This document shows positions 24,433-26,558 of a stretch of 64,000 bases of DNA, piece by piece. This DNA is from Pegethrix bostrychoides GSE-TBD4-15B (GTDB lineage: Bacteria; Cyanobacteriota; Cyanobacteriia; Elainellales; Elainellaceae): NCBI GenBank assembly GCA_019359155.1, contig JAHHHV010000074.1, forward strand, positions 1 to 64,000, written 5' to 3'. Below the pieces are notes generated by a model. The model ran no database searches. It was given only the letters and a program-made list of their open reading frames with translations, and was not told where the DNA came from. The stretch's first letter is position 1, and each line of letters starts with the position of its first letter. The translations under genes were made by a program, and so were the position numbers.

Positions 24433-24480
24433 ATCCCCAAAACTATCCGGAGGACAGTCCAGAGGACTAGTTTTGGGGAT
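24433..24480. repeat. 13-bp perfect inverted repeat around the first operator
   Basis: ATCCCCAAAACTA (24433-24445) and TAGTTTTGGGGAT (24468-24480) are exact inverted copies. The 22 bases between them contain the 24446-24466 palindrome. As RNA this would be a strong stem; as DNA it may extend the protein-binding site. Confidence 0.85.
24446..24466. promoter_or_regulatory. operator-like palindrome, copy 1
   Basis: TCC-GGA-GGACAGTCC-AGA-GGA. The fixed positions (TCC, GGACAGTCC, GGA) are the same as in copy 2, 84 bases downstream (eight helical turns). Confidence 0.7.
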
Positions 24481-24529
24481 AAATTATTTTCATCACAAAA
24501 TTTATAGCCAAAATCGGTCAGTCAAGATA

Positions 24530-24550
24530 TCCTGTGGACAGTCCACAGGA
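24530..24550. promoter_or_regulatory. operator-like palindrome, copy 2 (perfect)
   Basis: TCC-TGT-GGACAGTCC-ACA-GGA is a perfect 21-bp palindrome with a single central base. It lies about 60 bases before the start of the DNA-binding protein gene, so binding there would overlap its promoter. Confidence 0.75.
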
Positions 24551-24611
24551 CAAAACTCAGCGGATAGGTCACAGCAGGTAATCTACAGAGACAACCGAAT
24601 AGGAACGGCGA

Positions 24612-25175
24612 ATGGACAACTCGATCGACCGAGTGCCAGTAAATCAGCTCCCTGATCGATACAACCTAGTGCGAAGCGCCATCTATACTCGCCTAGATGC
24701 GCTGGGCATTGAACCCGAAAAAGTGGGCAACAAGTCCTACGTCAATGCAGAGCAGCTGCGCCTGTTAGACAATCTGCATGAGTTCATTCAGGCGGGCGGC
24801 ACGACGGCTGAATTTCAGGAAAGTCGGGGGATTCGCAGGCGTAAAGATAATTCTTCTGGACAGTCTTCCGGACTCTCTACCGGACAGCCGCAGGCCGATC
24901 TCTCGCAGTTGCTCAACGTGCTGAGCGACTTTGCCACCAAGCTCCAGCCCGTTGCACCTAAACCTGACCCCTTTGCCTACCTAGAAACGCTGGAACGCGC
25001 CGCTCAGACGGGCTGGCTGCTCAGAACCTCGGAAGTAGCTGAACTGCTGCGGCTCTCCCCCACCGAAATGCAGCTCTACGGCGATCGGTTCTCAGAGGCA
25101 GGCTTTGTATTTACTAAAGCGGGCTATCGCAGCGGCGGCGAGATTGCCTGGAAGGTGACAAAGCCGATAAGATGA
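24612..25175 (+). CDS. DNA-binding regulator with two HTH-like regions, probably autoregulated
   Basis: ATG 24612 has AGGA 7 bases upstream. The 187-residue protein has an N-terminal MerR/excisionase-like unit (LVRSAIYTRLDALGI, then KSYVNAEQLRLLDNL). A Gln/Ser linker (about 78-95) and a second HTH-like unit follow (LLRTSEVAELLRLSPTEMQLYG). Two DNA-contacting units in one chain suit a site made of spaced TCC/GGA half-sites. Copies of such a site occur before, inside and after the gene, so autoregulation is likely (inference). I cannot name the family. Similar proteins in cyanobacteria may be plasmid or partition regulators. Confidence 0.65.
   Translation: MDNSIDRVPVNQLPDRYNLVRSAIYTRLDALGIEPEKVGNKSYVNAEQLRLLDNLHEFIQAGGTTAEFQESRGIRRRKDNSSGQSSGLSTGQPQADLSQLLNVLSDFATKLQPVAPKPDPFAYLETLERAAQTGWLLRTSEVAELLRLSPTEMQLYGDRFSEAGFVFTKAGYRSGGEIAWKVTKPIR
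24852..24872. promoter_or_regulatory. operator-like palindrome, copy 3, inside the regulator gene
   Basis: TCT-TCT-GGACAGTCT-TCC-GGA keeps 13 of the 15 fixed positions of copies 1 and 2. It encodes part of the Ser/Gln linker and may be coincidental, but a weaker similar site follows at 24882. Confidence 0.4.
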
Positions 25176-25577
25176 AAAAGCCAGCTGGCGGCTGGCTGAT
25201 GATTGAGATGAACTGAAACTAAACGAACTTGAATTCAGCGTTGTTGACGTTGAGTTTAGTGAGTTTGGCTCTTGAGGTGATGTGGGTGTTAGCACTGGCA
25301 TCACCTTTTGGGCATTGGGCTTGGATAAGCTCTGCACCCGGCGATGAGCTGTCAGTCACTCTGGCATACCGAGCAGTTTTTTTGCGCGGTATCTTGTGCG
25401 CCAGCGGAAGCAACCCACCAGTGGAGGCGCTTCTTCCTGAACCCGGCAGCTTTTTTCTATCTGTAAATAGAATAGCATATCTGCAGGAAAGTCCGCAGGA
25501 AAGTCCGCAGGTCAAAATGCAGGCCAACATACGGGCCAACATGCAAGATAGTACACAGGACAATTAATCAAATCAAG
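25176..25577. other. spacer between convergent genes, no gene seen
   Basis: Frames exist on both strands (for example 25229-25567), but neither has a coding look or a ribosome-binding site. A 7-bp stem (AGCCAGC 25179-25185, GCTGGCT 25191-25197) follows the regulator stop and may help termination, though no T-run follows. Operator-like copies 4 and 5 are near the right end. Confidence 0.5.
25480..25512. promoter_or_regulatory. two overlapping operator-like palindromes, copies 4 and 5
   Basis: The 12-bp unit GCAGGAAAGTCC is repeated (25483, 25495). It creates TCT-GCA-GGAAAGTCC-GCA-GGA (25480-25500) and TCC-GCA-GGAAAGTCC-GCA-GGT (25492-25512). Each matches 13 of 15 fixed positions of the 24530 site. 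They lie 300 bases beyond the regulator gene. Confidence 0.5.
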
Positions 25578-26558
25578 TTAGAAATGCTGAAATCCCTGAT
25601 TCAAGCTAAGCGGCTGCTCAGGATATAGCCCGCTCTGATCTCTGAGCAAAACATCTGGACTGGCCGTAATGCTGCCGACAATGGCAGCTCCTGCGCCCAG
25701 CTGCTCGACAAGCCGCCCAGCCGCATCGCGAGGCAGGCAAAGCACCAGCTCGAAGTCTTCGCCGCCGTAGAGCGCCCAGTCGATGGCTTGCGCCTCCGAA
25801 ATCCAAGCAGTGAGGCTAGGCGGGAACGGAATCAAATTGCGCTCAAGCTGTGCCCCTACTTGACTAGCTCGGCAGAGTTGCAGCACTGCGTCTGCTAACC
25901 CGTCGCTGCTGTCCATACCCGCACTGCGACTCCCCAAAGCCCGCAGCGTTTGCACCGCATCCAGCCTTGGCTGAGGTCGCTGATGTGCCCGAATCAGCAG
26001 AGCGCGATCAGCCTCGGTCAATCCCTGCCCCTGCTCTGGATGCAGCAATAGCTCTAGTCCTGCTCTGGATGCACCATGCGCTCCTGTCACCACCACCGCA
26101 TCTCCCGCCTGAGCGGCACTGCGCCGAATCGCCTGCTCAGATCGTACCTGTCCCAGCGCCGTGATCGCAATCGCTGTGACGCTAGAGCGGCAGATATCGC
26201 CGCCTAAAATCGGCGTATTAAACGGCTGCAAGCAGTCCACCATGCCCTGATACATCCCGTCTAGCCAGTCTACTTCTAGCTCTCCTGGCAGGCTCAGCCC
26301 GACGGTGATGCCCAGCGGCTCAGCTCCCATTGCCGCCAAATCTGACAGGTTGGCCGCTGCGGCTCGCCAGCCTGCGTCAGTGGCGCTTGTCGTGCGGTCG
26401 CTGAAATGTATGCCGTCAATCAGCATATCGGTGGTGACAACTAGTTGATAGCCAACAGCCACCGACAGCAGAGCCGCATCGTCACCGACAACTGTAGCCG
26501 GACAATAGCGTTGCAGGCGTTTGAGCAACGCCTGTTCACCGAGCTGTTTGACCTGCAT
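25578..26558 (-). CDS. thiL: thiamine-monophosphate kinase
   Basis: Phosphorylates thiamine phosphate to the cofactor thiamine diphosphate. The family fold (AIR-synthase-like) is seen in VGDDAALL near residue 24, TTDMLIDGIHF, AAANLSDLAAMGAEP, ILGGDICRS and the C-terminal GMDSSDGLADAV and YGGEDFELV. The 326-residue length is normal. Its ATG lies 14 bases after the stop of the upstream cyclophilin gene on the same strand, so the two probably share a transcript. Confidence 0.95.
   Translation of the reverse strand: MQVKQLGEQALLKRLQRYCPATVVGDDAALLSVAVGYQLVVTTDMLIDGIHFSDRTTSATDAGWRAAAANLSDLAAMGAEPLGITVGLSLPGELEVDWLDGMYQGMVDCLQPFNTPILGGDICRSSVTAIAITALGQVRSEQAIRRSAAQAGDAVVVTGAHGASRAGLELLLHPEQGQGLTEADRALLIRAHQRPQPRLDAVQTLRALGSRSAGMDSSDGLADAVLQLCRASQVGAQLERNLIPFPPSLTAWISEAQAIDWALYGGEDFELVLCLPRDAAGRLVEQLGAGAAIVGSITASPDVLLRDQSGLYPEQPLSLNQGFQHF

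Follow-up and report, generated by a model that had tools for sequence, protein, structure and literature searches.

Palindromic sites in and around the gene of a cyanobacterial two-winged-helix protein: a possible single-protein centromere-binding system

In Bacillus subtilis, a parS centromere site lies inside spo0J, which encodes the protein that binds it. The Par protein of the staphylococcal plasmid pSK1 achieves partition as a single protein, and is reportedly autoregulated. RacA and pSK1 Par are both segregation proteins with MerR-type winged helix-turn-helix (wHTH) domains; RacA binds repeated centromere-like sequences, and pSK1 Par contains a coiled coil as well as a C-terminal disordered tail (PMC11500499). 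Plasmid R388 encodes the stability protein StbA, deletion of which leads to high plasmid loss (PMC3098194). In cyanobacterial plasmids, the replication proteins CyRepX and CyRepA are among the backbone genes (PMC10899382). The current work compares with these systems a locus of the cyanobacterium Pegethrix bostrychoides GSE-TBD4-15B, in which a cluster of palindromic sites surrounds and enters the gene of a DNA-binding protein.

The window, namely the whole 64,000-nucleotide stretch analyzed, contains the palindrome TCCNNNGGACAGTCCNNNGGA as exact copies at 24446-24466 (upstream site 1, TCCGGAGGACAGTCCAGAGGA) and 24530-24550 (upstream site 2, TCCTGTGGACAGTCCACAGGA), spaced by 84 bp. Copies with two mismatches are found at 24852, 25480 and 25492; all five positions had been listed in a first-pass annotation and were recovered by the mismatch-tolerant search. 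That search, run on both strands with up to 3 mismatches, returned 13 matches against 1.3 expected, a number reached in 0 of 100 shuffles, and a repeat search revealed a sixth copy at 24864, overlapping the one at 24852. The pattern TCC-N3-GGA-N3-TCC-N3-GGA thus has six sites within 1.1 kb, around and inside an open reading frame on the + strand (24612-25175) for a 187-aa protein. The upstream and downstream copies do flank the gene, as first described, but the copy at 24852 is internal. The internal site (24852-24884) and the downstream site (25480-25512) each consist of three 9-bp units in 12-bp steps. The former forms part of the linker codons and encodes SSGQSSGLSTG; the latter is located 305-337 bp past the stop codon, between convergent genes, with the thiL reading frame ending at 25578. 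A degenerate further half-site, GATAGTACACAGGACAA, is present at 25547-25563 (repeat family D2, 88%). The upstream, linker and downstream clusters are about 280 and 800 bp apart, and none of these elements is assigned to a strand.

Beyond the two exact 21-mers of the window, the genome (5.72 Mb in 92 contigs) has no exact copy; the remaining matches have two or three mismatches and resemble background. Site 1 is enclosed by a perfect 13-bp inverted repeat (24433-24480; arms 24433-24445 and 24468-24480, 100% complementary), in agreement with the first description, and the result is a 48-bp near-palindrome with a predicted RNA fold of -25.9 kcal/mol (z -5.6). This inverted repeat is absent from the upstream sequences of relatives. 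It may act as a terminator of the upstream gene; the hairpin is strong, but it coincides with no terminator prediction on the + strand and is not conserved in relatives.

The AF2 model of the 187-aa protein (mean pLDDT 81.7) contains two winged-helix domains, as expected from the two HTH regions noticed earlier: an N-terminal MerR-like winged HTH (residues ~7-72) and a C-terminal winged-helix-like domain (residues ~122-183), both mostly above 90, joined by a disordered linker (residues ~73-120) that is largely below 60. A helix at residues ~97-110 is modeled with the C-terminal domain at a pLDDT of only ~55-60. Among structural matches of the N-terminal domain (VIA-align), the best is RacA (PDB 5i44; Z 9.3, 67 residues, 2.4 A), and pSK1 Par (PDB 8csh) aligns over 53 of 53 residues with Z 8.1, an rmsd of 1.2 A and 13% sequence identity. 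Ordinary MerR regulators follow closely, at nearly equal Z, so that the fold alone is no proof of function. The classical MerR layout, in which the wHTH is followed by a dimerization helix and an effector domain, is replaced here by the disordered linker and the second winged helix. The C-terminal domain reaches Z 4.0 at best, which is too weak for naming a relative. Searches of Pfam, NCBIfam and PHROG assigned the protein to no family at a meaningful score; ParB_N (PF02195) is absent both from its own Pfam matches and from the 25 families that most members match. The protein evolves under purifying selection (dN/dS 0.05-0.11).

The association between motif and gene extends far beyond the window. 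The motif is present in all close relatives and missing from distant ones. In a TCCNNNGGAYWRTCCNNNGGA scan of 28 genomes, 18 with and 10 without a gene of the window clade, every one of the 18 contained exact sites (1-6 each), and 55 of the 57 exact sites were located at the clade gene. Among the 10 genomes lacking the gene, nine had no site and one had a single site; with the pattern reversed as a control, there was one match. A TCCTNAGGA scan led to the same outcome. With only 2 of 57 exact sites off-locus, a global regulon was rejected. As far as the link of motif and gene is concerned, there is strong support for the earlier description of a compact, seemingly undescribed operator system, since the sites are confined to the locus and accompany the orthologue in all genomes tested. 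The protein encoded at 24612-25175 is very probably the one that binds them.

In 25 related loci, the 9-bp palindrome recurs on its 12-bp lattice at matching positions. The unit TCCNNNGGA is present 8.0 times per locus against 0.28 times per equal length of flanks, and 82 pairs of units are exactly 12 bp apart. In most of these loci the upstream sites are centered at -16/-18 and -65/-67 from the ATG, with the window (-72 and -156) and its nearest relative (-142 and -239) as exceptions; site 2 of the window, centered at -72, is probably the counterpart of the -65/-67 site. A suggestion that the 84 bp of the window represent eight helical turns did not hold up, the spacing being unconserved and the two promoter-proximal sites of relatives lying mostly 48-51 bp apart. 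The internal sites are centered at +253/+265, in linker codons between the winged-helix domains, and were lost in the Nodosilinea group. Downstream sites are found at about +210 to +330 past the stop codon. These clusters, of two to several units, are mostly located between convergent genes and are therefore unlikely to be operators of a neighbor.

Several single loci depart from this layout. An off-locus array of three units, TCCTATGGATTGTCCTGTGGACTGTCCTGAAGA, is located at the 3' end of a Uma2-like gene (L125 ~1703-1740; G017:C5 251706), and is the only convincing trans site seen. The nearest relative of the window has about six tandem cgagtcagacaac copies just upstream of the gene start (L077 ~2590-2665), which the window does not have. 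Two paralogues of one genome (L044 and L117, G021) are placed inside the motif clade by the tree, and neither has a clear repeat signal; a site with one mismatch can be seen just upstream of the gene in L117.

The DNA of the internal site is itself under selection. All 22 glycine codons within the site are GGA, compared with 52 of 243 in the rest of the same genes (p = 5e-14); for serine, TCC makes up 36 of 63 codons inside the site and 41 of 231 outside it (p = 3e-9). Because the members are related, the independent events are fewer than these p-values suggest. This synonymous bias implies selection for the DNA sequence of the codons, beyond the peptide.

More divergent relatives, many of them plasmid-borne, have a different palindromic repeat in similar places, that is, upstream, in the linker and sometimes past the stop codon. 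Among 47 non-redundant members, 28 had more 14-mer repeats than any of 20 shuffles and 19 did not. In those 28, the two domain-coding parts contain 7 and 3 copies, compared with 57 upstream, 31 in the linker and 46 downstream. The linker is strictly the best match to the upstream region in 12 of 16 members of the window clade (p = 1e-9) and in 14 of 31 outside it (12% expected, p = 6e-6), whereas for the downstream region such a preference is seen only inside the clade. The motif of one member recurs in the locus of another in 93% of pairs at 55-70% protein identity, in 70% at 45-55% and in 0-1% below 45%. Protein and sites, as judged from these comparisons, diversify together. Repeated TVN-x3-D-like peptides are present in the linkers of four loci (L084, L099, L100 and L102), and in L084 and L102 the underlying DNA resembles GACACTGTAAATT; these probably represent another motif family.

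Homologues were identified in 25 of 60 relatives and also on nine named contigs (for example of Elainella and Nodosilinea), and an alignment-profile search of 291 genomes of the phylum detected the family in 42. By tblastn it is present on 32 plasmid records from more than 10 cyanobacterial genera, including Synechocystis pSYSM. On 11 plasmids checked, ParB_N was absent from 10, and a match to the ParA type (PF13614) was absent from 7 and present in 4; most of the small plasmids looked at have no annotated partition protein. In Allocoleopsis pMIC7113.01, the family gene is located directly upstream of parA-parB (L083 3983-6467). No paper describing the family was found in the literature.

In the tree, the window clade (support 100/99) is placed among plasmid-borne relatives, and the counts of plasmid and chromosome labels fit a plasmid as well as a chromosomal origin. 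The neighbors of the gene in the window, as read from the sequence, are an aldolase-like fba, a YkuD gene, thiL, a peptidyl-prolyl isomerase, efp and accB, with YkuD and AIRS domains matched among them, which suggests that this stretch is chromosomal. Single-copy chromosomal orthologues are present in two complete genomes (G006 and G011), 1.38 and 1.03 Mb from dnaA, and at these distances an origin-proximal chromosome centromere is ruled out for the two genomes. A mobile element was also considered by way of an empty site; neighbors vary between genera, but core genes reshuffle even within a genus, so no empty site could be defined and mobility is not claimed.

The reading preferred here is that of a plasmid-derived, self-repressing and site-clustering DNA-binding protein that probably acts as a single-protein centromere-binding factor; this reading as a whole has about even chances of being right. 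A dimer or small oligomer would bind the tandem 9-bp palindromes (TCCTNAGGA type) on the 12-bp lattice. Occupancy of the upstream sites, which in relatives are located around a -10-like element, would repress the gene of the protein, and proteins seated on the upstream, linker and downstream clusters may bridge these into one compact nucleoprotein complex that marks the DNA segment. On plasmids, this complex would most likely serve for partition without an ATPase, as does that of pSK1 Par, and plasmid partition is the most likely role of the family. For the cluster in the window, a centromere or DNA-loop role, as initially proposed, is plausible in view of the plasmid-borne relatives, the domain resembling RacA and pSK1 Par, and the post-stop sites in mostly convergent intergenic DNA; an architectural, centromere-like function may be taken as equally likely to hold or to fail. 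The chromosomal copy of the window, which belongs to a clade among plasmid-borne relatives and is maintained by purifying selection, may be a retained, possibly domesticated, version.

Autoregulation is a likely component of this reading. In many relatives a GCGATACT-like -10 element is conserved between the two upstream sites, and since the sites flank it, their occupation should block the promoter. The same observation, along with the sites adjoining the start codon, the MerR-type fold and the missing regulon elsewhere, also fits a plain autorepressor, which would control only its own level, would use the internal and downstream sites to strengthen repression by looping or as a roadblock, and would have no part in segregation. 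Such a protein is a serious but rather unlikely alternative. A regulator whose sole target is itself needs another function to stay conserved (dN/dS ~0.1); the clusters past the stop codon, mostly between convergent genes, exceed what ordinary autorepression requires; and site specificity shifts as the protein diverges, as expected for a replicon-specific identity.

The plasmid setting bears on two further alternatives to the centromere-binding reading. A tyrosine recombinase is encoded on 10 of the 11 plasmids checked, once directly before the family gene, and the excisionase-like HTH_17 is the commonest weak Pfam match among members, so the protein might serve as an accessory or directionality factor for that recombinase in dimer resolution or integration. 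This is improbable, given that no recombinase was recognized among the window neighbors when the reading frames were read, and that sites on the scanned plasmids cluster at the family gene, although pSYN6312.01 has one extra pair near its recombinase. Rep_3 initiators have two winged-helix domains, and a plasmid-borne gene of this architecture with tandem repeats nearby might likewise encode a replication initiator or a copy-number regulator with iteron-like repeats. That is similarly improbable: one family plasmid also carries an annotated replication protein of the CyRepA1 family, a large DUF5906 protein or an unnamed ~1000-aa protein could be the replication protein on other family plasmids, several of them small, the single-copy chromosomal orthologues in two complete genomes are away from dnaA, and searches of Pfam, NCBIfam and PHROGs gave no match to a Rep family. 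Finally, the tandem 12-bp units and the off-locus array in G017 resemble a spreading short tandem repeat unrelated to the protein, but this general-repeat explanation, which the first-pass annotation had named as the refuting case, retains hardly any probability and was excluded by the concentration of exact sites at the gene across many genera, the essentially empty genomes without it and the change of motif with protein.

The family is a candidate for the upkeep of cyanobacterial plasmids without ParA/ParB, and it is found on many small plasmids as well as on Synechocystis pSYSM. A wider proposal is more tentative and may well prove wrong, namely that the family forms an undescribed class of ATPase-free segregation systems in cyanobacteria, with one two-winged-helix protein, a centromere partly contained in its own linker codons, replicon-specific sites that diversify with the protein, and chromosomal copies acting as domesticated locus tags. 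The locus also offers a clear natural case of a probable binding site under DNA-level selection inside the coding sequence of its own protein, and the co-diversifying protein-site pairs might serve as orthogonal operator pairs in the engineering of cyanobacteria.

Compared with known systems, the family differs from the plasmid replication proteins of cyanobacteria: pSYSX, with slr6031 and slr6090 (CyRepX1/2), is absent from its plasmid matches, and CyRepA1 co-occurs with it as a distinct protein. StbA of R388 works without an ATPase of its own, in an operon context different from that of the family. In the ParABS system, too, a site can be internal to the gene of the binding protein, as with parS within spo0J/parB; ParB, however, belongs to a different family with no match in the cyanobacterial proteins, and works with ParA. 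RacA, which anchors the Bacillus subtilis chromosome, is the best structural match of the N-terminal domain, but possesses a coiled coil as well as a polar partner, and its sites are spread along the chromosome, whereas those of the family are confined to their own locus. With respect to pSK1 Par, the cyanobacterial proteins have a disordered linker and a second winged helix where no coiled-coil region was found, and their sites also occur inside and after the gene. On 7 of the 11 family plasmids checked, no partner ATPase of the ParA type (PF13614) was matched. In both, a MerR-type winged HTH protein is plasmid-borne, and a cluster of repeats is located beside the gene of the protein itself.
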